In this document: positions 3,783 to 42,122 of the stretch, in pieces
Layout of the letters: every line of letters begins with the position of its first letter
Position numbering within the stretch: position 1 is the first letter of the stretch
Assembly: GCA_016778985.1 (NCBI GenBank)
Contig: JADHOM010000005.1
Coordinates: 1 to 64,000 of the forward strand
Direction: 5' to 3'
Source of the DNA: Alphaproteobacteria bacterium
GTDB taxonomy: Bacteria; Pseudomonadota; Alphaproteobacteria; Puniceispirillales; UBA1172
DNA length: 64,000 nt
Translations under genes and position numbers: made by a program
Notes under the pieces: model-generated
What the model was told of the DNA's origin: nothing
The model's database searches: none
Seen by the model: only the letters and a program-made list of their open reading frames with translations

Positions 3783-4820
3783 TTACACAAAATCATCACC
3801 ACCACGACCAGCCAGGACGATTGAACCTTCATCTGAGAGACGGCGGGCGACGTTAATAATGCGCTTCTGGGCTTCTTGAACTTCGGTTAAGCGGACAGGC
3901 CCCAAGGCCTCCATTTCATCTTGAAGGTTTGCGGCAGCCCGTGATGACATACATGAAAATAACTTATCACGTAACGGTTCATCTGCCCCTTTAAGCGCCA
4001 GCACGAGATCTTCTGTGTCAACCGAACGGAGCAGGGTCTGAAGCGACTTATCATCTGACATCACCAGATTATCAAAGATGAACATGCTTTCCTGAATAGC
4101 GACCATGAGATTTTTATCATCCTTGGCCAGGGTTTTCATAATCCGCGCTTCCATATCCTGCTTGGTGAAGTTCATGATCTTAGCGGCGGCTTGGACACCG
4201 CCAACTTGTGATGCACGCAGATTAGTGTTGGTCGCAAATTTTTTCTGCATGACCAGTTCTAGTTCCTTTAAGGCATCAGGTTGAACGGTTTCTAATGTCG
4301 CGATACGGCCAACAACCTCAGGCTGAATTTCTTCTGGTAAAAGACCAAGAACATCGGCGCCAACGCCAAAATCAAGATAGGATATGATGAGCGCAATGAT
4401 CTGCGGATGCTCATCAAGGATAAGCTCGGCAATAGATTTGGAATCCATCCAGTCAAGAATCTCAATAGGCTGGTTGCTGCTTGATGGCGTAATGCGACTG
4501 AGAACAGATTGCGCCTTATCTTCACCAAGGGCTTTATTAAGAACATTCTTGATATAATTCCCGGCGCCTAAACCAAGGCTGGTTTGCTCTTTAATAATGG
4601 CAAGAAACTCATCCAGCACCAAATTCACTGTGTCCTGGTTAAGCCCTTGAACTGAATACATCGCTCGGCCAAGATGCTGAACTTCACGTGGGTTCAGATT
4701 GCGGAGAATCTCCGATGCCTCATCTTCACCCAATAGCATCATCAGAATGGCGGATTTTTGAGTGCCACTTAACGCCTCAAAAACGGCCTCTTTTTTAACT
4801 GGGTTATCTGTTTCTGCCAT
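3783..4820 (-). CDS. fliG: Flagellar motor switch protein FliG
   Basis: FliG is the rotor protein that couples MotAB stator force to rotation and sits on the FliF ring. Its 345 residues match the family length of about 330-345. The middle-domain signature DEHPQIIALIISYL is present near residues 153-166. The C-terminal torque helix is intact: DLVLALKGADEPLRDKLF, then CMSSRAA and ALGPVRLTEVQEAQ. The N-terminal domain carries the FliF-binding helices (GTQKSAILMMLLGEDEAS). It is followed by fliH and preceded by fliF after a 102-base gap in which I see no promoter. Confidence 0.97.
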   Translation of the reverse strand: MAETDNPVKKEAVFEALSGTQKSAILMMLLGEDEASEILRNLNPREVQHLGRAMYSVQGLNQDTVNLVLDEFLAIIKEQTSLGLGAGNYIKNVLNKALGEDKAQSVLSRITPSSSNQPIEILDWMDSKSIAELILDEHPQIIALIISYLDFGVGADVLGLLPEEIQPEVVGRIATLETVQPDALKELELVMQKKFATNTNLRASQVGGVQAAAKIMNFTKQDMEARIMKTLAKDDKNLMVAIQESMFIFDNLVMSDDKSLQTLLRSVDTEDLVLALKGADEPLRDKLFSCMSSRAAANLQDEMEALGPVRLTEVQEAQKRIINVARRLSDEGSIVLAGRGGDDFV

Positions 4821-4922: not shown

Positions 4923-6629
4923 TTAATCCAAATCTTCTTTCATCATATTTTTAAAGACGTTAGATACGCGACCTGCTTCGTCACTGACGATCATGCGAAT
5001 AACGGCAACTTTATCGTCATAGGTATTAGCCGTATCCAGCATCTCGGCGGAGATGGAGGCCTTTTTCGGCTTCAGCTTTGACTTGATATCCTCAAGGCTT
5101 TCGCCTTCGGAAATCTCAACTGTATCTAGATCGACTTCATCTTCAAGATTGACCAGAGCCTCACCAGGCTTGCCAGGAGCAACCGGCACAATAATCCGTG
5201 AGATTAATGGACGGATAACACCAAGAATAATGACGCCCATAATAAGTAAGGTCATTAGCTGCTTCATGACATTAGAAATCCAATCAATTTCGTACCATGA
5301 CTTTTCAATGCCTTCGATCGCTGACGCAAATTCAGAACTGCTGACAGTTAATTTATCACCGCGCTCTATATTTATACCTATTGCACTTTCAACAAGAGCA
5401 CGAATTTCTGCCAGTTTCTCAGGGGTGATTTTCTGAATTTCTTTCAGACCAGTTTCTGGGTTTTCCACCTCAGGATCACGTAATAAGACCGAGGCATTAA
5501 TCGCCGTGATCAGATTTGATGGTTTTTGGGTGGTAGAGATTGTCCGGCTAACCTCATAATTTTTGACCTCATTAGATGAGCGTGACTGAAACTCACCACC
5601 ACTGCCTTGATTAGAAAAATTTTTATTAATTTCATTAGCTGTCGGTGGTTGATTTGAAGTCGCGCCGGGAATACCTTTAGCTTCAGGTTTTGCCGTCATA
5701 TCAACGCTGGATTGCATGCTGCGGAGCGCACCACCCTCAGGATCAACCAACTCTTCTGTAATCTCATTACGGGTAAAATCAATATCCAGATTAACCTGTG
5801 CGGTCACATTGCCAGCACCAACAATGGGCGATACCAGCTGGATAATTCGGTTACGATAAATCTGCTCAAGCTTCATGCGGTGTTCAAGCTGACCATCTGA
5901 CATAGCATTTGATGGATCATCAATCGGCTTAGACAATAAATTACCATATTGATCAACAATGGTCACATCGCTCTTAGCCATGCTTGGAATAGACGATGAG
6001 ACAAGATGAACAATGGCATTTACCTGATGATTACCAAGGGCGCGGCCACCACTCATTTGAACAAAGACAGAGGCGCTAGGTGGCACAGCAGAGCGCGCAA
6101 AGACTGATTTTTCTGGCAATGCCAGATGCACTCTCGCGGCGATAACGCCCTCAATCTCACCAATGGACCGGGCCAGTTCAATTTCTTGTGCCTGCTTGAT
6201 CTTGACGCTTTCAACAGATGAACTTGAGCCCATCGGGATATCACCAATAGTCGAATAGCCATCAGGAACAGACTCGGGCAACCCTTGCGCCGCCAAGGTC
6301 ATGCGTGCCGTATGATAATCAGTAGTTGGAACAATCACATCACCAGTACTAGGATCAAGGCTGACATCAACACCTGCATTTTTAAGTGCTTCGACAACAC
6401 GGGCTTTTTCACTTTCTGGCAGACCAGCATATAAAGGTGTCAAAGCAGGTTGCTGCATCACAACATAGATGATGAGTCCAACGACCACGCCAATAACGGA
6501 AAAGATAGCTGGTAAGGATTTTTTGACACTTGGGTCAGACGTAATGCGGCGCACGCTAGATAGCATTCCGCCTTTTTCAGCCACAGTCACTGCTGCTGTT
6601 TGATTATCCATGGTGGTTGCGTCGGCCAT
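4923..6629 (-). CDS. fliF: Flagellar MS-ring protein FliF
   Basis: FliF forms the MS ring in the inner membrane, the first assembly platform of the basal body. The 568-residue protein has a first membrane segment at about residues 40-60 (IFSVIGVVVGLIIYVVM). The periplasmic ring-building domains follow, with the motifs PVYAGL-like LTPLYAGL, ARVHLALPEKSVF and PPSASVFVQ. A second membrane segment lies at about 458-480 (LMTLLIMGVIILGVI), then a cytoplasmic acidic tail that binds FliG. Length is typical. It sits between fliE and fliG in one operon. Confidence 0.97.
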   Translation of the reverse strand: MADATTMDNQTAAVTVAEKGGMLSSVRRITSDPSVKKSLPAIFSVIGVVVGLIIYVVMQQPALTPLYAGLPESEKARVVEALKNAGVDVSLDPSTGDVIVPTTDYHTARMTLAAQGLPESVPDGYSTIGDIPMGSSSSVESVKIKQAQEIELARSIGEIEGVIAARVHLALPEKSVFARSAVPPSASVFVQMSGGRALGNHQVNAIVHLVSSSIPSMAKSDVTIVDQYGNLLSKPIDDPSNAMSDGQLEHRMKLEQIYRNRIIQLVSPIVGAGNVTAQVNLDIDFTRNEITEELVDPEGGALRSMQSSVDMTAKPEAKGIPGATSNQPPTANEINKNFSNQGSGGEFQSRSSNEVKNYEVSRTISTTQKPSNLITAINASVLLRDPEVENPETGLKEIQKITPEKLAEIRALVESAIGINIERGDKLTVSSSEFASAIEGIEKSWYEIDWISNVMKQLMTLLIMGVIILGVIRPLISRIIVPVAPGKPGEALVNLEDEVDLDTVEISEGESLEDIKSKLKPKKASISAEMLDTANTYDDKVAVIRMIVSDEAGRVSNVFKNMMKEDLD

Positions 6630-10736: not shown

Positions 10737-12455
10737 TTATGACCGTTCCAGATCGGTGATGCGGTTTTGCGTGCTTAGATATAGCCCAAAGATATCACCC
10801 TCAGTAACCACCCCAAGCATTTCACCCGTATCACGATCAATCACTGGAATGGATTCTCCGACAAATGTGCTTGCTATTTCAATCGCCTGCATCAATGAGG
10901 CATCATGTTTGATTGAGATAGCCGCCGTATCTGCCGCCGCAGTTAGGCTAATATCATCAGGCTGCTGAAGAAGCTCATGCAGGGTTAATTTACCAATAAA
11001 CCGTTTCTCATCAAGCAGATAGCTTTCACTAACAGCATTGGCTATCATCCGGTCAACAACATCAGATTTACTGTCAGATTGATAGGCGGTGACAAAATCA
11101 TCACTGACCAGATTACGGACAGGGATTTCCATCATTTCCAAATGCCCGCGACCTTGTGAGATATCAATACCGCGATCAAGCAATTGCCGGTCAAAAAACG
11201 AATGGCTGTAAATATGATGACTGACCAGCGCGGCGGTGACGACGCTCAACATGGCGGCAAGGGCATAATCATAACTCATGGTCATTTCAAGCATGATGAG
11301 GACACCAGAGACTGGCGCGCCGATAACCGCGCTAGCGACTGCCGCCATCCCGCACACAACCATAACCGGCCCGCTAACCATAATGCCGATGCTGGCAAGC
11401 AGTTTGTGGATGCTGGCGCCCGCTGCCGCCCCAATGAATAGGGCGGGTGAGAATATGCCGCCAAAAAATCCCATGCTTAGACACAATGCCGTCATCACGG
11501 CTTTCGCCACCAATATGGTGAGCAGCATAGCTAATCCAAACTCCATATTGAGCATATCAAGAACAACTGCTGTGCCGAGGCCTAGGATTTGCGGCAAGAC
11601 CATGCCCACTAATCCGGTTAATAAAGCGCCAAGAAAGAGCAATTGCGATGGCGTCAGACCTGTCCGTCCAACTAGCCTTGTTCCATGCCGCAAGCCCATC
11701 ATATAAAGCGCCGCAATGACGCCAAAAATAGGCCCGGCGATGAGCGCGATTGGCAGAACCTCAACCAGATTGATATCAGGGACACCAGAAAAAGCGTGAT
11801 TATCTCCAAAAATCCACTTACTCATGCCGGCTGAAGTGATGCTGGCAATGGCGATCGGGGTGACGGTGCGGACTGAAAAATGACGCAATATCGCCTCATG
11901 AGCAAAAACAACTCCAGCGATAGGGGCGTTAAATCCGGCGGCAATGGCGCTGGCGACACCGCATCCGATGAAGATATCTGTGGTGAGGCGGCCGCCCGTG
12001 ATTTGCCTAGCGAAACTACCTATTGTGGCGCCAAAATGCACTAACGGGCCGTATTGTCCGACTGAGGCGCCGCCGCTGGCAGATACGAATGCTGCTAGTG
12101 TCGAGCCAAAACCAGCTTTGACATCAAGTTCGTTATCGGTTCTGTGGGCAGCATAAATACTATCGCCGGGGCCGTGCCAGCGGCTGATCGCAAAGACACG
12201 TCTGATGATAATGATCAATACCGCCGCCACCAGCATGGCCAGCAGCGGCGTGAGTGAAAGCAGGTGTTCGCCAATGCTGAATTGGAACATGCTTAACCCT
12301 TCGCGCATCTGGGTAAGCTGGCCAACACCGATAACAAAACCGTTGGTGACAATGGCCATGAGCAGGCCAAATCCGACGCCTGTGATGATGAGATAGACAA
12401 GCATCCGTATCAATTCAGTGACTGCCTGGCCAGATGCAAGAGGGCGTTGGGACAT
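10737..12455 (-). CDS. ClC-family chloride channel with C-terminal CBS pair
   Basis: The protein has about ten hydrophobic segments over residues 15-430 and two CBS domains at about 440-570. Family motifs include GQYGP (133-137, in place of GREGP), FNAPIAGVVFAHE (175-187) and GGIFSPALFIGAAAG. The external gating glutamate of ClC-ec1 (E148) is replaced by Tyr, and the internal proton glutamate (E203) aligns with Ala. Both are needed for proton coupling in exchangers, so a passive channel is inferred. The first selectivity motif GSGIP is also altered (GPGDS). It is an unrelated gene inside the flagellar cluster. Confidence 0.88.
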   Translation of the reverse strand: MSQRPLASGQAVTELIRMLVYLIITGVGFGLLMAIVTNGFVIGVGQLTQMREGLSMFQFSIGEHLLSLTPLLAMLVAAVLIIIIRRVFAISRWHGPGDSIYAAHRTDNELDVKAGFGSTLAAFVSASGGASVGQYGPLVHFGATIGSFARQITGGRLTTDIFIGCGVASAIAAGFNAPIAGVVFAHEAILRHFSVRTVTPIAIASITSAGMSKWIFGDNHAFSGVPDINLVEVLPIALIAGPIFGVIAALYMMGLRHGTRLVGRTGLTPSQLLFLGALLTGLVGMVLPQILGLGTAVVLDMLNMEFGLAMLLTILVAKAVMTALCLSMGFFGGIFSPALFIGAAAGASIHKLLASIGIMVSGPVMVVCGMAAVASAVIGAPVSGVLIMLEMTMSYDYALAAMLSVVTAALVSHHIYSHSFFDRQLLDRGIDISQGRGHLEMMEIPVRNLVSDDFVTAYQSDSKSDVVDRMIANAVSESYLLDEKRFIGKLTLHELLQQPDDISLTAAADTAAISIKHDASLMQAIEIASTFVGESIPVIDRDTGEMLGVVTEGDIFGLYLSTQNRITDLERS

Positions 12456-34804: not shown

Positions 34805-35189
34805 CGCCCTGATCTTCGTTTTGCCCCATTATCATCGCTTTGATTTCATTGAGAGAAGGCAGGTGCAGGATTTTATCCGCATAGAGATAATTGGGATTGT
34901 TACGAACAAAGGCATGTTTGTTTTTCATGACAATTGCCATTTCGATAAAGCGCATATTCAAGCCACTGCCAATGTAATGCTTTTCCATCACATGACTTAG
35001 CGTTTCGCCAGGTTGGACGGTATGTTTAGCGGAATAATTCTGATCAATCACAAACGGATTATCAGGCATGATGCCGTTTTTGCCATAGCTCTGATATTCT
35101 AGCACCACAAAGGGTTGAGAATTAGCTATGGCTAGGGCAGGTAGGCCAGATAGCAGTGCGGCCAGAATAAGCGTTTTAGCTTTCATCAT
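34758..35189 (-). CDS. Secreted LysM/FimV-like protein in the flgP-flgT-flgA operon
   Basis: The protein has a Sec signal peptide (residues 1-22, LILAALLSGLPALAIA) and one LysM-like module (HTVQPGETLSHVMEKHY), followed by FIEMAIVMKNKHAFVRNNPNYLYADKILHLP in pieces. That continuation resembles the FimV-type LysM region, in which NPNxLxAGxxLxIP is standard. LysM modules bind peptidoglycan, so a wall anchor for the basal-body rings is inferred. Length 143. It overlaps the ends of both the FlgT-like gene (4 bases) and flgA, indicating tight coupling. Confidence 0.75.
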   Translation of the reverse strand: MMKAKTLILAALLSGLPALAIANSQPFVVLEYQSYGKNGIMPDNPFVIDQNYSAKHTVQPGETLSHVMEKHYIGSGLNMRFIEMAIVMKNKHAFVRNNPNYLYADKILHLPSLNEIKAMIMGQNEDQGDDNYTISNDIYFFGG

Positions 35190-36409
35190 TGTGTTAGCTC
35201 CATGAATTCAACAGATTTGCCTTCTAACATGCTGATATTATGTGACGTATCAAGCGGGCTCAGTGTTGCGGTTCGATCATTAAGGGCAGTAATTTTTAGC
35301 ACTGTCCAGCCGGTATCACCGCCATTGGTCACAGCTAGTGAGTTTTCATTTAAGCCTTGCTGACGGCCAAAAGGCACGGTCAGCATATCACCTTGTTTTG
35401 CCAAAGTTGCAATCAGCGGCTGGCATAGCATAGCTTCGCTAGCTGCCTTAACAAAAAATGGAATAGGTTGTGATAACGCCGCCGTCCGCTCAGTACGTGA
35501 GGATTTTGTCAGGTGATTTATTGCCCTAAACGGCGTCTTTGTGCTGAACGGTATCTCAGCAATGATGCTTTCGTTAAACGCTGGCATATATGTATTGCCA
35601 TGAAATCCATTCATGACAAAGGTGACGGTCAGATAATCGCTGCGAATAACCCCATTAGTGTTACGCGCATGATCAATATGAATCTCCGGGACAATAGCAA
35701 AATCACCATCATGAACATGGGTCTTGCCACTTGTTAATGCCATATAATCAAAATCATCATTAGTATTAGACAAGTTTCTTGCCGAAAAACTGCGGTTACT
35801 GGCATTGGTCATATCAATCTGTGGGTGGTTATCTACCTCAGCTAAAATCTCTTTGACCATCATATGCGCGTGGGCTGCCGCCCATGAGGGGACCTTTGGG
35901 TCGATCTTGATAATAGGCTTATACATCGTTGCATTAACCCGTGACCGCTGACATTGCTGTTCTGGCTTCTCCCCAATAACCGCCCGGATGGTGACGGAAT
36001 AATGGGTTTCATCTTCGACTTCATTGATCACCGCATAATCCATAATCATGCTAGCAGGTCTGATGACGAAATGGTCGCTAAGGCTAGTATCTGCGCTGAC
36101 GGCTGAAAATCCGTCAATCCGCGCGCCGCCTTGTAATGCTGCCAGATAAAGCGCATCTTCGAGAGCCAGCATACGGGCTTCTGCTTTTGTGTCTTCATGC
36201 ACAATTACCGCCCGGCCAGTTGCTTCTGTGTATCGCAAATCGGCTAATGGTCGTCCTGGCAGAACGAAAACAAATAGCGCCATAAAGACAAACATCATTC
36301 TTAACAGTGGATATGCCCGTTCTGAACTCGCCTGCGACAAGCGTTTCTGGGCAAGCGTCGCCTGCCCCAAGGTTGTTTGTGCCAGTTTTATTTGTGTTGA
36401 TGCGATCAT
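35186..36409 (-). CDS. flgT: FlgT-like flagellar H-ring protein
   Basis: In Vibrio FlgT builds the H ring around the LP ring and helps recruit MotX/MotY. This 407-residue protein has a hydrophobic export segment at about 37-55, then an N-terminal domain, RYTEATGRAVIVHEDTKAEARMLALEDALYLAALQGG in pieces, close to the FlgT-N pattern (EATGxAxIxxxxxxxARxxAxxxAL). The C-terminal part includes a small beta-domain with TGWTVLKITALNDRTATL. Pairing with an FlgP-like lipoprotein supports the name. The start is uncertain because the signal is preceded by about 35 residues. Confidence 0.72.
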   Translation of the reverse strand: MIASTQIKLAQTTLGQATLAQKRLSQASSERAYPLLRMMFVFMALFVFVLPGRPLADLRYTEATGRAVIVHEDTKAEARMLALEDALYLAALQGGARIDGFSAVSADTSLSDHFVIRPASMIMDYAVINEVEDETHYSVTIRAVIGEKPEQQCQRSRVNATMYKPIIKIDPKVPSWAAAHAHMMVKEILAEVDNHPQIDMTNASNRSFSARNLSNTNDDFDYMALTSGKTHVHDGDFAIVPEIHIDHARNTNGVIRSDYLTVTFVMNGFHGNTYMPAFNESIIAEIPFSTKTPFRAINHLTKSSRTERTAALSQPIPFFVKAASEAMLCQPLIATLAKQGDMLTVPFGRQQGLNENSLAVTNGGDTGWTVLKITALNDRTATLSPLDTSHNISMLEGKSVEFMELTQ

Positions 36410-36467: not shown

Positions 36468-37001
36468 CTAGCCGATATGTCTGGCGCTATCCATCAGATA
36501 GGCGATCATATCGCGATCAATCTCAAGAACAATTTCATATGTGTCAGACCCTGTCGGGTTAATCCGAACAGTTCTGGCGCCTCTAATCGTGCCTGTGACA
36601 ATACCGCGGAAAGTGTCGTTTTGAACCATCAGATCAATGACAGTTGTTGTACTATCGACTTGCAAGCCATGAATCTGTTCAGCTAGGTCACGCATCGCTG
36701 CCATCCGTGCGGCACGAATAGCCATAAGCCTTTTCTGGGCATCTGAGCGTCCGGGCTGCGATGAAATAACAGCATATCCAACCGCGGTTAGGGTCGGGAT
36801 TTGATCGGCCTTCGCATCCAAAACGTCTTTGACAGCAGCCAGAGATTCAGTCTGGCTCATTTCCAGATCACTAACGCCAACCGTATCAGAAGCCCCTGAT
36901 GTGAGCGCTTGTTCGCTTTGCAAGATGACTGGCACCTGACATGCCGCCAATGTTGCCGCAAGCGGTAAAAAGGCCAGAGGTTTTAAGGTCTTATAAGTCA
37001 T
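36468..37001 (-). CDS. flgP: FlgP-like lipoprotein (LPP20 family)
   Basis: A lipoprotein signal (AFLPLAATLAAC, Cys 21) leads to a domain of the LPP20/FlgP type: LTAVGYAVISSQPGRSDAQKRLMAIRAARMAAMRDLAEQIHGLQV in pieces. It continues with VIDLMVQNDTFRGIVTGTIRGARTV in pieces and YEIVLEIDRDMIAYL. In Vibrio FlgP is an outer-membrane flagellar protein and in Campylobacter it forms the basal disk. The 177-residue length matches. It is the first gene of the flgP-flgT-LysM-flgA-flgM-flgN series and has a sigma-54 promoter upstream. Confidence 0.82.
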   Translation of the reverse strand: MTYKTLKPLAFLPLAATLAACQVPVILQSEQALTSGASDTVGVSDLEMSQTESLAAVKDVLDAKADQIPTLTAVGYAVISSQPGRSDAQKRLMAIRAARMAAMRDLAEQIHGLQVDSTTTVIDLMVQNDTFRGIVTGTIRGARTVRINPTGSDTYEIVLEIDRDMIAYLMDSARHIG

Positions 37002-37334: not shown

Positions 37335-39434
37335 ATGGATGCAGTGATACAACGCCTGAATGTTGATACTCTACTGTCTGTCTTTCGGGGCAGTGTTATG
37401 CCGATTGGTATTCTTATTCTTGTTGCCATGATGGTTGTGCCGCTGCCGGTTATTTTACTAGATATCTTTTTTGTTACTAATATTCTTGTCTCACTGCTTA
37501 TTCTGATGGTGGCCATGCATACTTATAGGCCATTGGATTTTTCCAGCTTTCCTAGCCTTATTCTTATCGCTACGGTGCTGCGGCTTGGTCTCAATGTGGC
37601 TTCAACGCGCATTGTTCTAACCGAAGGGCACGAAGGTGGAAATGCCGCAGGTGAGGTGATTGAATCCTTTGGTGAGTTTGTCATTGCGGGCAATTACGCG
37701 GTTGGTATTTTTGTCTTTATAATTCTGATCATTATCAATTTGGTCGTCATTACCCGTGGTGCTGGCAGAGTATCAGAAGTCTCTGCCAGATTTACATTGG
37801 ATGCTATGCCTGGCAAGCAAATGGCGATTGATGCCGATCTTAACGCTGGCGTCTTGACCAACGAAGAAGCCAAAATCAGGCGTCAAGAGATTGCCAGTGA
37901 ATCTGATTTTTATGGGGCAATGGATGGTGCATCTAAGTTTGTCAAAGGTGATGCCATTGCCGCGATCTTTATTTTGCTCATAAATATCATTGGCGGTCTA
38001 ATTATTGGTCTTACTCAGCATAATTTACCGCTTTCGGTTGCTGCGGAAAACTATGTTCTGTTGTCTATCGGTGACGGGTTGGTTGCGCAAATCCCTTCAT
38101 TACTGCTTGCCATTTCTACTGCGATTATTGTGACCCGCGTCTCGTCAACACAAGATATGGCACAGCATATTGGGGCTCAGGTTAATTTATCCCGCGCTTG
38201 GATACCGGTTGCCGCTGTCTTGGGATTGATCGGTCTTATACCAGCCATGCCTAATCTATTGTTCTTATCTGGCGCGGCCATTGCAGGGGTGCTGGCGGCG
38301 AGCTCATATTTCAAAGAAGAACAGCTCGCAGAGCAGGAAAATCTTGTTTCTAATGCGCTCGAAAGTCCCGAAGAAAATACCGAAGATGTCTCTCTTTCAG
38401 ACATCGCAGATAATTCAGCAATATCAATCATGCTAGGGTATGGGCTGGTTGATATGGTCAATGGTAATGATGGTGGGGTTTTAAGCACAAGAGTGACAGG
38501 GATACGCCGACAAGTCTCAAAAGCGCTTGGATTTGTTGTGCCATCAGTTCGTATTAGAGATGACCTGACGCTTGAGCCAAACACCTATCTGATCAAAGTA
38601 GGGCATACAATTGTTGGTGAGGATAAAGTCTATCCTGATCGCAAGCTGGCTATTCCGGGCGAAGATGCCAATCTCAAAATCGATGGTATCCATGTGAAAG
38701 ACCCGACCTTTGGCATGGATGCTGTGTGGATTAATGCTAATCAAACGCGCGAAGCCGAAACCAAAGGCTATGTTGTGGTGGCACCTGAATCTGTTCTGGC
38801 GACGCATTTAAGCCATTTGGTATATAAATATGCAGGGCAACTAATTGGTCAGGATGATGTTAAGAAATTGCTTGATAACCTTGCTAATAGCGCCCCAAGT
38901 CTGGTGCAATCGGTTGTCCCTAAACTGATCCCTCTGCATAATTTAACGGCTGTCTTACGGAACCTTCTTGATGAGCGTGTGCCTATTGGTGACATGCGCC
39001 GGATTTTGGAAAACATTGCTAATCTGGCCTCTCGTAACCTGAGCACGGCTGATATGGCAGAGGCATTGCGCCCAGTTCTTGCCGGCATGTTGATCCAGCA
39101 AGTTGCGCCTTTGAACAGCCCGTTGCCTGTTGTGACGCTGGCCTCTGATCTCGAAAATATGCTGATCACGATGCAAAAGCAAAGCGGTGAGGAAGGGCTT
39201 ATCCTCGATAATGAATTATCACAGAAATTATTAACCAAACTGAATCAGATCAATGATGATATGTCGTCAAAAGGCAAGCAGGCGGTTTTGGTCGTCTCGC
39301 CTGTTATTCGGCGCTCACTATCTGGCCTCGTCCGCCAGCATATTGATGACATGATCGTCATTGGATTTACCGAAATTCCAGATAACCGCAAGATTGAACT
39401 TGTGGCGACAATTAGCGGTGAAGCCGAGAGCTAA
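37335..39434 (+). CDS. flhA: Flagellar export gate protein FlhA
   Basis: FlhA is the main proton-driven export gate subunit. Its 699 residues match the family (about 690-700). The N-terminal half has about eight membrane segments. The cytoplasmic FHIPEP signature lies at RGAGRVSEVSARFTLDAMPG, followed by GKQMAIDADLNAG. The C-terminal domain includes the conserved VVAPESVLATHLSHLVYKYA in pieces and VLRNLLDERVPIGDMRRILE. An SD (AGAGG) lies before the ATG. It leads the plus-strand operon with the FlhF-like gene, flhG and fliA. Confidence 0.97.
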   Translation: MDAVIQRLNVDTLLSVFRGSVMPIGILILVAMMVVPLPVILLDIFFVTNILVSLLILMVAMHTYRPLDFSSFPSLILIATVLRLGLNVASTRIVLTEGHEGGNAAGEVIESFGEFVIAGNYAVGIFVFIILIIINLVVITRGAGRVSEVSARFTLDAMPGKQMAIDADLNAGVLTNEEAKIRRQEIASESDFYGAMDGASKFVKGDAIAAIFILLINIIGGLIIGLTQHNLPLSVAAENYVLLSIGDGLVAQIPSLLLAISTAIIVTRVSSTQDMAQHIGAQVNLSRAWIPVAAVLGLIGLIPAMPNLLFLSGAAIAGVLAASSYFKEEQLAEQENLVSNALESPEENTEDVSLSDIADNSAISIMLGYGLVDMVNGNDGGVLSTRVTGIRRQVSKALGFVVPSVRIRDDLTLEPNTYLIKVGHTIVGEDKVYPDRKLAIPGEDANLKIDGIHVKDPTFGMDAVWINANQTREAETKGYVVVAPESVLATHLSHLVYKYAGQLIGQDDVKKLLDNLANSAPSLVQSVVPKLIPLHNLTAVLRNLLDERVPIGDMRRILENIANLASRNLSTADMAEALRPVLAGMLIQQVAPLNSPLPVVTLASDLENMLITMQKQSGEEGLILDNELSQKLLTKLNQINDDMSSKGKQAVLVVSPVIRRSLSGLVRQHIDDMIVIGFTEIPDNRKIELVATISGEAES

Positions 39435-39471
39435 GCCAGACCACTTATAAGGGAAAGCAAGGAGAGAAAAT

Positions 39472-40497
39472 ATGCCAACCATTACCGTATCTGCTGCCGA
39501 TAGTGCAACTGCGATGGATCAAATCCTGTCACAGCTTGGTGATGATGCCTTGATTTTGGACACTAAGACCCGTGATGGTAAAGTTGAGATCAGTGCCACC
39601 AATGATCTTGGCTATGCACCCAAAAAGAAAGACAAAATCAGCGATGTCTTTACCAAGGTCATGCAGGAAGAATTGCATTCTCATCAGGGACCACGGCAGT
39701 ATTCTAATCCCATAACAGGTCGGCCAAGTATGGATAAAGCAACCTCAGACGCCTTTATGAAAGCTATCGGGGATGAGCAATCCGCGGCAGCGCAAGCGGA
39801 TAGTAGTTTTGAGGAAGAGGCGCAAATCAATATTCGGGTGAAGCGGCTCAAATGGGAAAATGAAAAACTGGCTAAAGATATTGAAGACCAGCGAAATGAG
39901 ATAAGGGATTCTGTTGAAACCGCTAAAGTGTTCTATGAGAAAGCCATAGAGCAGGGCGAGGAAGCAAAGCAACAGATGAACCTTTTCACCCATGATCTCA
40001 ATGGACTTCGGGCAACGATAAATCAGATGCGCAGTGATATGGTTAGCCGCTCTAAGCATCGGCTAAGCATGGTTGTTCTCATCATGGCGCTTGGCCTGAC
40101 AGCAGGGACATATGCGATGCGTGATCATCTGGCTGGGGTTACCCCTTTTATCTCTGGATTGATGCAAACCATAGGTATTATGCCCGCCGCAAGACCTGAA
40201 CAGATTGAAATTAGCGCGCTAGATGCCACCCGGATGGGTGACACCATCCGCATTAAAGGGACTGTGACCAATCATAATCAAAGCCAGATAGAAGCTCCAA
40301 TGATCCGCTTTCAGGTCAAAGATAAGACAGGCGGCATCCTTAGTGAAAGAGATGTCAGATTAGATCAGGACAGCCTGATGCCTAGTGTTGGCGTTACTGT
40401 CACCACTCAGCTCGTGATGCATTCTAGCATTGATGATGATGTTGAAACCGATATCATTGCCATTCCAATCTTTGACACCACGACAAATGATGCTTAG
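39472..40497 (+). CDS. Membrane protein with FlhF-like N-terminal domain but no GTPase
   Basis: It sits exactly where flhF is found in polar flagellates, between flhA and flhG. Residues 1-47 match the FlhF B domain (VSAADSATAMDQILSQLGDD, then ALILDTKTRDGKVEISAT; compare AxxMxxAxxLVRxELGxDAxIL). The SRP-type NG GTPase of FlhF is absent: no P-loop exists. Instead there is a charged linker, a coiled coil at about 120-190, one membrane helix at about 199-216, and a C-terminal beta-domain at about 243-335 (IRIKGTVTNHNQSQIEAPMI) resembling DUF3426/FxLYD modules. A polar landmark or FlhG partner is inferred, not shown. Confidence 0.7.
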   Translation: MPTITVSAADSATAMDQILSQLGDDALILDTKTRDGKVEISATNDLGYAPKKKDKISDVFTKVMQEELHSHQGPRQYSNPITGRPSMDKATSDAFMKAIGDEQSAAAQADSSFEEEAQINIRVKRLKWENEKLAKDIEDQRNEIRDSVETAKVFYEKAIEQGEEAKQQMNLFTHDLNGLRATINQMRSDMVSRSKHRLSMVVLIMALGLTAGTYAMRDHLAGVTPFISGLMQTIGIMPAARPEQIEISALDATRMGDTIRIKGTVTNHNQSQIEAPMIRFQVKDKTGGILSERDVRLDQDSLMPSVGVTVTTQLVMHSSIDDDVETDIIAIPIFDTTTNDA

Positions 40498-40603: not shown

Positions 40604-41398
40604 ATGGCAACATCAATCGCAATATGCAGCGGCAAGGGCGGCGTTGGAAAATCCAACATAACTGTCAACTTGGCGATGGTAATTCAAAGCATGGGTAAGA
40701 GAGTTGCCATACTTGATGCTGATTTTGGTATGGCTAACTCGCATATTTTGATGGGAATTAACCCTGAGCATTATATCAGTGAGGCGTTATCTGGAGAAAA
40801 ATCAATGTCAGAAATTGGCTGTCCGGGCCTGAAAGGGGTCAATGTCTATTCTGGCGGCAGCGGTTTGCTTGAGGTGTTAAATCTGGATAAGACCAAACGC
40901 TTTCAAACCATCAGATTAATGGATGAGATCGAAGATCAGATTGATGTTCTGCTCATTGATGTTCCGGCTGGTGCCTCGGATAATTCGGTGTCTTTTGTAT
41001 CGGCGGCAGATCGGGCAGTTGTCGTGCTTGTTGGTGAGCCAACCAGTTTTCTTGATGCCTATTCCTTTATTAAGGCCTGTCATCTGGAAATGAAAATCAC
41101 AAACTTTACTATTGTTGTGAACATGGCTAATAGCGCCGCGGAGGCGAAAAAGCATTTTGATCGGTTTAATGCCATAGCCATGCAATTTTTGGATGTTCGC
41201 CTGCGCTTTGGTGGGCATATCCCTATGTCACAGCGGATACGTAAATCTGTTATAGACCGTAAGCCAATCACCGCCAGAAAATCGGATTTGCCAGAAGTAG
41301 TAGCCTTTCAATCAGTGGCTAAACAGGTGCTTGATGCGCCAATGAATACGACAAATGGTATTCGGTTTTTCCAGCAAGGTAAGTCAGGCGAGGGATGA
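40604..41398 (+). CDS. flhG: FlhG/FleN MinD-like ATPase
   Basis: FlhG controls flagellar number and placement, usually by acting on FlhF and on the FleQ/FlrA activator. These 264 residues show the deviant Walker A SGKGGVGKSN near 9-18, the switch I-like DADFGMANSHILMG, and the Walker B DVLLIDVPAGAS. Later the MinD-family VVVLVGEPTSFLDAYSFIK is present. The C-terminus lacks a clear MinD amphipathic membrane helix. Its usual partner FlhF is replaced by the GTPase-less protein upstream, so its mode of action here may differ. Confidence 0.9.
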   Translation: MATSIAICSGKGGVGKSNITVNLAMVIQSMGKRVAILDADFGMANSHILMGINPEHYISEALSGEKSMSEIGCPGLKGVNVYSGGSGLLEVLNLDKTKRFQTIRLMDEIEDQIDVLLIDVPAGASDNSVSFVSAADRAVVVLVGEPTSFLDAYSFIKACHLEMKITNFTIVVNMANSAAEAKKHFDRFNAIAMQFLDVRLRFGGHIPMSQRIRKSVIDRKPITARKSDLPEVVAFQSVAKQVLDAPMNTTNGIRFFQQGKSGEG

Positions 41399-41399
41399 G

Positions 41400-42122
41400 A
41401 TGAGAGCGCATTATCCTGAACAAAAAGTGGATATTGAACAGCTAATCAACAATCACCTTGATTTAGTTAAAAAGATTGCATGGCATATGCATGGCCGTGT
41501 CCATCTATCTATTGAGATAGAAGATTTAATTCAGATTGGATATTACGGTCTGGTGCTGGCGGCGCAGAATTATACCCCGAAAGAAGGCGCTAGTTTTTCG
41601 AGCTATGCCGGATTGCGCATTAAGGGTGAAATTATTGACTTCTTGCGAAAGAACTCAAACCTATGCCGGACAACAATCAAGCGCCAGCAAGATGTTCGCT
41701 CAGCTGAACAAGAGCTTCGTTCTAAATTAGGACGCGAGCCAGAATTGCATGAACTGGCTAAGCATTTGAACGTTGAAGAATATGAAATGCAGGACTGGCA
41801 ACAAGACTTTGAGGCCAATAATCATCAATCGTTGGATAGCGTATATGATGAGTTTTCTATCTGGTTTGTGTCTGACGACAATAATCCCGAAGATGTGATG
41901 AATGATCTTGAGTTAAGGTCATCGCTGAAAGATGCTCTCCATACTCTGCCCGAACGTGAGGCCCTGATTATTCAACTCTATTATGTTGAGGAGCTTAACG
42001 TCTACGAAATAGCAGAAGTGCTGGAGATTACAACTGGCCGCGTATCACAGATTAAATCCTCAGCCATTAAGCGGCTCCGAGATTATATCGGTAATCCTGA
42101 ACATGGATTTATGGCAGGATAA
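41400..42122 (+). CDS. fliA: Flagellar sigma factor FliA (sigma-28)
   Basis: FliA directs late flagellar genes and is held by FlgM. Region 2 is seen in HLDLVKKIAWHMHGRV, IEDLIQIGYYGLVLAA and FSSYAGLRIKGEIIDFLRKN. Region 4 is seen in HTLPEREALIIQLYYVEELNVYEIAEVLEITTGRVSQIKS in pieces. I chose the ATG at 41400 (240 residues), since AGGG precedes it and it abuts the flhG stop. A start at 41355 would overlap flhG by 44 bases and add 15 residues. It ends the conserved flhA-flhF-flhG-fliA order. Confidence 0.93.
   Translation: MRAHYPEQKVDIEQLINNHLDLVKKIAWHMHGRVHLSIEIEDLIQIGYYGLVLAAQNYTPKEGASFSSYAGLRIKGEIIDFLRKNSNLCRTTIKRQQDVRSAEQELRSKLGREPELHELAKHLNVEEYEMQDWQQDFEANNHQSLDSVYDEFSIWFVSDDNNPEDVMNDLELRSSLKDALHTLPEREALIIQLYYVEELNVYEIAEVLEITTGRVSQIKSSAIKRLRDYIGNPEHGFMAG

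Follow-up and report, generated by a model that had tools for sequence, protein, structure and literature searches.

The flagellar cluster of the window (the whole stretch of 64,000 nucleotides that was analysed) contains, between flhA and flhG, a gene for a 341-residue protein with an FlhF-like N-terminus and a membrane-anchored C-terminal half, here called the chimera. The window lies on contig C43 of a 2.1 Mb genome (G000) that is 98.6% complete, and the nearest named relative is a MAG of the SAR116 cluster, a group of ocean bacteria (91% identity). The gene order is flhA–chimera–flhG–fliA, with the ATG of the chimera 37 nt past the flhA stop and a gap of 106 nt between its end and flhG (Table 1); the position between flhA and flhG, first read from the bare sequence, is confirmed by the TIGR01398 match and the flhG call. 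The cluster also encodes FliI and flagellin. As in Vibrio H/T-ring motors, a protein with a FlgT N-domain (35186-36409) and an LPP20-type lipoprotein (36468-37001) are encoded in this alphaproteobacterial flagellar cluster, and a CLC-type chloride channel gene (10737-12455) lies within it.

Table 1. Coordinates of the chimera gene, its parts and the flagellar genes around it.
Feature	Position	Strand	Basis
fliG, all three domains, presumed FID ligand	3783..4820	-	PF14842, PF14841, PF01706
fliF (MS ring)	4923..6629	-	PF01514, PF08345
flhA	37335..39434	+	TIGR01398, 796 bits
AGGAG ribosome-binding site, 7 nt upstream of ATG	39460..39464	+	read from sequence
FID-coil-TM-DUF3426 chimera (probable FlhF replacement), 341 aa	39472..40497	+	Pfam/TIGRFAM matches, orthologues, dN/dS
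FID (FliG-interacting domain of FlhF), residues 1-47, beta-alpha-beta-beta	39472..39612	+	profile, fold, conservation
Variable linker, residues 48-111, with conserved FlhF-like motif 57-69 (SDVFTKVMQEELH)	39613..39804	+	alignment with neighbouring-family FlhF
Long helix/coiled coil, residues 112-192, conserved RLxWENERLxKE motif	39805..40047	+	AF2, alignment, heptad scan
Single TM helix, residues 198-216, N-in/C-out	40063..40119	+	hydropathy, flank charges in 8 orthologues
DUF3426, residues 243-335, an Ig-like beta sandwich predicted to be periplasmic	40198..40476	+	PF11906, hhalign, fold
flhG (MinD-like ATPase), Walker motifs intact, without N-terminal DQAxxLR helix	40604..41398	+	
fliA	41355..42122	+	TIGR02479, 214 bits

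The FlhF model TIGR03499 matches residues 4-166 of the chimera over model positions 4-155 of 286 (E = 3.2e-7, 30.7 bits, cut-off 174). A profile made from 14 FlhF sequences of neighbouring families scores 72-80 bits on all eight chimeras and at most 9.2 bits on 1000 shuffles of the window protein, and hhalign pairs residues 1-49 with FlhF of the SAR116 order at 99.7% probability (E = 1.1e-26, 59% identity). Residues 1-47 of the AF2 model superpose on the FliG-interacting domain (FID) of Shewanella putrefaciens FlhF (PDB-id: 9en1, Z-score: 8.6, r.m.s.d.: 1.8 Å, 47 residues). By sequence, too, 9en1 ranks first in the PDB, with a weak match for the chimera profile (E = 0.014) and a clear one for the neighbouring-family FlhF profile (E = 4.7e-6). 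When residues 1-52 are folded alone, the helix and two strands are predicted (pLDDT 71) and the first strand is absent. The sequence-only reading had assigned the first 47 residues to the N-terminal domain of FlhF; profile, alignment and fold bear this out, and the likeness does not stop at residue 47 but takes in another short motif near residues 57-69. Judged by profile match and predicted fold, the N-terminus of the chimera is the FlhF FID. In Shewanella, binding of FliG requires the first 60 residues of FlhF and needs no more of the protein, the FID contacts the M and C domains of FliG, and FliG bound to FlhF does not bind FliM/N (PMC11236974).

The AF2 model has a mean pLDDT of 57 and is weak except for the FID and the β domain; a helix spanning residues 112-188 is predicted at low confidence and a six-stranded β domain at residues 245-333. 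Four K/R residues flank the TM helix on its N-side and one on its C-side, and the N-flank is positive in all eight orthologues, so the protein should be oriented N-in/C-out with a periplasmic C-terminus. PF11906 (DUF3426) matches residues 201-298 with 27.1 bits, just below the cut-off of 27.7. A coiled coil and one membrane helix had been proposed beforehand, and both are supported, by the AF2 helix and by hydropathy; the C-terminal β-domain proposed with them stands on its six predicted strands and can now be identified further as DUF3426. Foldseek matches of the whole model are mostly generic Ig-like sandwiches, uninformative on function, and DUF2802, the FipA domain, has no match in the chimera among Pfam matches to E 1.

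A homologue of the membrane half is encoded in the same genome (G000:C27, L106:1474-2121), in a gene that adjoins one for a diaminopimelate decarboxylase-like protein. This 215-residue protein consists of a zinc ribbon (PF13717), a TM helix and DUF3426 (PF11906, 26.5 bits, also below the cut-off of 27.7). The TM helix and DUF3426 of the chimera align with the ZitP-type paralogues of the family over 140 columns (hhalign 99.5%, E = 2.9e-23), and in a tree the chimeras cluster with the zinc-ribbon proteins of SAR116 (100/100) and separately from those of other Alphaproteobacteria; their position among the SAR116 ZitP-type proteins has weak support (84/83). The CxxC-CxxC zinc ribbon itself is not present in the chimera, whose 341 residues include no cysteine. 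On these alignments the anchor of the chimera probably corresponds to the TM-DUF3426 part of a membrane protein of ZitP type. Caulobacter ZitP is bitopic and bipolar, and its DUF3426 domain, predicted to be periplasmic, recruits CpaM to the pole (PMC5182063). Its zinc ribbon binds PopZ and is the seat of both polar targeting and the role in motility; DUF3426 is dispensable for motility and for the polar location of ZitP (PMC5182063, PMC5182065). As the zinc ribbon does that job in Caulobacter ZitP, DUF3426 may not be the polar address. No PopZ (PF10691) was found in the window genome (the Caulobacter control was positive), and no CpaM-type deacetylase (PF04748) was matched there.

The reading frame is open in eight genomes of three genera, one of them a single contig, with 42-91% identity over the whole length. 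Comparison with congeners gives an overall dN/dS of 0.08-0.10, indicating purifying selection, with the FID the most constrained part (0.01-0.05, against 0.05-0.11 for the TM-DUF3426 half). The FID is 98-100% identical in close congeners and 77-79% identical in the most distant chimeras, where overall identity is 42-52%. No plasmid copies were found.

That the protein has neither a P-loop nor an SRP-type NG domain, as the sequence-only reading had it, is borne out by the lack of any NG match in it. A complete flhF elsewhere, which would have spoken against replacement, was found neither in the window genome nor in 11 relatives (12 family genomes in all, one complete), and the TIGR03499 cut-off of 174 bits is reached in none of the 12, nor in any other genome of the order. 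Further TIGR03499 matches in the window genome are FtsY and Ffh only, both on contig C27 and of ordinary make-up; the other family genomes likewise have FtsY and Ffh, plus weak short matches the size of a P-loop. Nor was NG found as a separate gene in the 12 family genomes: a profile of neighbouring-family NG domains gives E values of 1e-64 to 1e-111 in sister genomes, against a best of 7e-7 in the family, where the matches fall mostly at the places of Ffh and FtsY.

With presence of FlhA taken to define a flagellated genome, the chimera occurs in 8/8 FlhA-positive genomes of the family and in 0/4 FlhA-less ones, counts given without a p-value because related genomes are not independent events. 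One single-contig genome of the same genus (G135) has neither FlhA nor the chimera, which points to loss of flagella within the genus. In the genomes sampled more widely, 385 from the class and 397 from the phylum, no further match combining the two halves came up. The same locus and the perfect co-occurrence with flagella strongly support orthologous replacement of FlhF, and to that extent the earlier suggestion of a membrane-anchored substitute holds; its second part, placement free of GTP hydrolysis, is something we infer. We read 39472-40497, with reasonable but not high confidence, as a SAR116 family's orthologue of flhF, with the NG half replaced.

Neighbouring families of the order encode an FlhF of 370-450 residues at the same locus. 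All 29 aligned full-length FlhFs of the order retain G4 (T/SKLDE) and G1 (GxSGSGK/RTT or a close variant), and all 29 have lost G2 (DTxRxxAxxQL) and G3 (DTAG); the ten other alphaproteobacterial FlhFs aligned with them have a G2 of the D[TS]xR/K type and, in nearly every case, a recognisable D[TS]AG or D[TS]PG G3. Because G2 and G3 are missing order-wide, loss of hydrolysis probably preceded the replacement of NG in the family; by these motifs the replacement would be a second step and not the sudden loss of an active GTPase. The FlhFs of L014, L020, L024, L028, L029, L031, L033, L053 and others appear to be pseudo-GTPases that bind GTP and do not hydrolyse it. The same pattern of G1 and G4 kept, G2 and G3 lost is seen in FlhF of L098 and L101, which belong to other lineages of the class.

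The FlhG proteins of the order have the Walker A segment right at their N-terminus and lack the DQAxxLR helix, the known activator of the FlhF GTPase (PMC12826062). The absence of the helix fits a history of GTPase loss but is not specific to the order; as a specific correlate of NG loss it was rejected, for no FlhG examined, from the order or from other Alphaproteobacteria, has the helix. In the chimera family and some relatives the C-terminus of FlhG lies close to a conserved GIRFF motif.

In Shewanella the NG domain of FlhF binds the landmark HubP independently of nucleotide (PMC11236974), and in P. aeruginosa the G domain of FlhF serves polar location and the B domain assembly (PMC12713375). 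With the FID as holder of FliG and NG as holder of the landmark, a swap of NG for a membrane module exchanges one location device for another. By analogy, the cytoplasmic FID would bind FliG as in Shewanella FlhF, gathering FliG-FliF, while the coil would probably give dimers or oligomers as well as reach. The TM helix and periplasmic DUF3426 would fix the protein at the envelope site of flagellum building, an anchor that would stand in for the NG-landmark contact (NG-HubP in Shewanella). A search with TIGR03504 for a HubP/FimV landmark gave no match in the family, with controls that do not establish its sensitivity. Release of FliG to FliM/FliN would proceed via FlhG or through competition by FliM/FliN, not through GTP hydrolysis by FlhF. 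FliG binding, polar location and the role of FlhG we infer from the studied systems. A GTPase-free placement in which the FID recruits FliG, TM-DUF3426 replaces the NG-landmark contact and FlhG is retained is the explanation we favour, and it would mean placement without FlhF GTP hydrolysis in this lineage unless another GTPase took over. The chances are about even that the chimera represents a complete natural bypass of the FlhF GTPase, a one-piece adaptor between FliG and the envelope that evolved in two steps and works with FlhG alone.

The protein could instead be a motor accessory whose FID holds FliG in assembled motors, as a clutch, a brake or a stator-side collar, with placement left to FlhG or to geometry. 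The contacts of the FlhF FID with the M and C domains of FliG (PMC11236974) would suit such a role, as would the suppression of the Caulobacter zitP motility defect by fliG D306G (PMC5182063), and the FlgT-like and LPP20-type genes of the locus suggest that the motor may carry extra parts. The gene, however, sits exactly in the flhF position ahead of flhG, and the finding that FliG held by Shewanella FlhF cannot bind FliM/N fits assembly better than a finished motor; we consider this role unlikely, though it is the strongest of the rivals. More doubtful still is that the FID survives as a vestige that serves FlhG or transcriptional signalling, in a protein that is mainly a ZitP-like organiser of envelope or polarity acting via DUF3426 and placed in the flagellar operon by chance. 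Homology of the TM-DUF3426 half to ZitP-type proteins is clear, and this half is itself conserved, but the FID is the most conserved part of the chimera, and the gene is missing from all four FlhA-less genomes.

It is very improbable that the switch comes in trans from a different GTPase, be it Ffh, FtsY or one unrelated to them: FlhF is paralogous to Ffh and FtsY, both of which are present, yet these two are ordinary, no extra NG-type protein was found, and the FlhFs of neighbouring families already lack the hydrolysis motifs. An assembly error or a pseudogene fusion of two unrelated genes, conceivable where most genomes appear to be draft assemblies, MAGs included, is ruled out for practical purposes by the open fusion in eight genomes of three genera, one single-contig, and a dN/dS of about 0.1.

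The favoured reading, GTPase-free placement by a membrane-anchored FID, bears on the purpose of the FlhF GTP cycle, which is unclear because NG binds the landmark whatever the nucleotide (PMC11236974) and the need for FlhF GTPase activity differs among species (PMC12826062). In a lineage without NG the two jobs of FlhF, keeping hold of FliG and getting to the proper site, come apart, and the prediction is that simple anchoring can do the second. The chimera also links two polarity systems studied in different bacteria, FlhF/FlhG and the ZitP-type DUF3426 proteins. No report of an FID-TM-DUF3426 fusion was found in the literature searched, mostly without subscription journals.

Among known systems, FlhF (TIGR03499) has in common with the chimera the N-terminal FID and the order flhA-flhF-flhG-fliA, and within the family the chimera occurs only with flagella. 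Unlike FlhF, the chimera has no N or G domain and no nucleotide-binding motif, and in their place stand a TM helix and a DUF3426 predicted to be periplasmic; since the defining NG domain was looked for and is absent, it falls outside the FlhF GTPase family. The full-length FlhFs of neighbouring SAR116 families (L014, L020, L029) share the locus, an FID 59% identical by profile and a similar FlhG, but their C-terminal half is of NG size, retaining G1 and G4 and lacking G2 and G3. FipA, the DUF2802 membrane partner of FlhF in γ-proteobacteria, likewise spans the membrane once, has a cytoplasmic coil and acts in FlhF-dependent placement. Its topology is opposite to that of the chimera, its DUF2802 has no counterpart there, and FipA needs a separate FlhF whereas the chimera contains the FID. 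With Caulobacter ZitP and the homologue encoded in the same genome, the chimera shares a single TM helix followed by DUF3426 in a one-pass, N-in protein; it differs in its cytoplasmic FID and coil and in the place of its gene in a flagellar operon, and because the zinc ribbon is absent it is not a ZitP.
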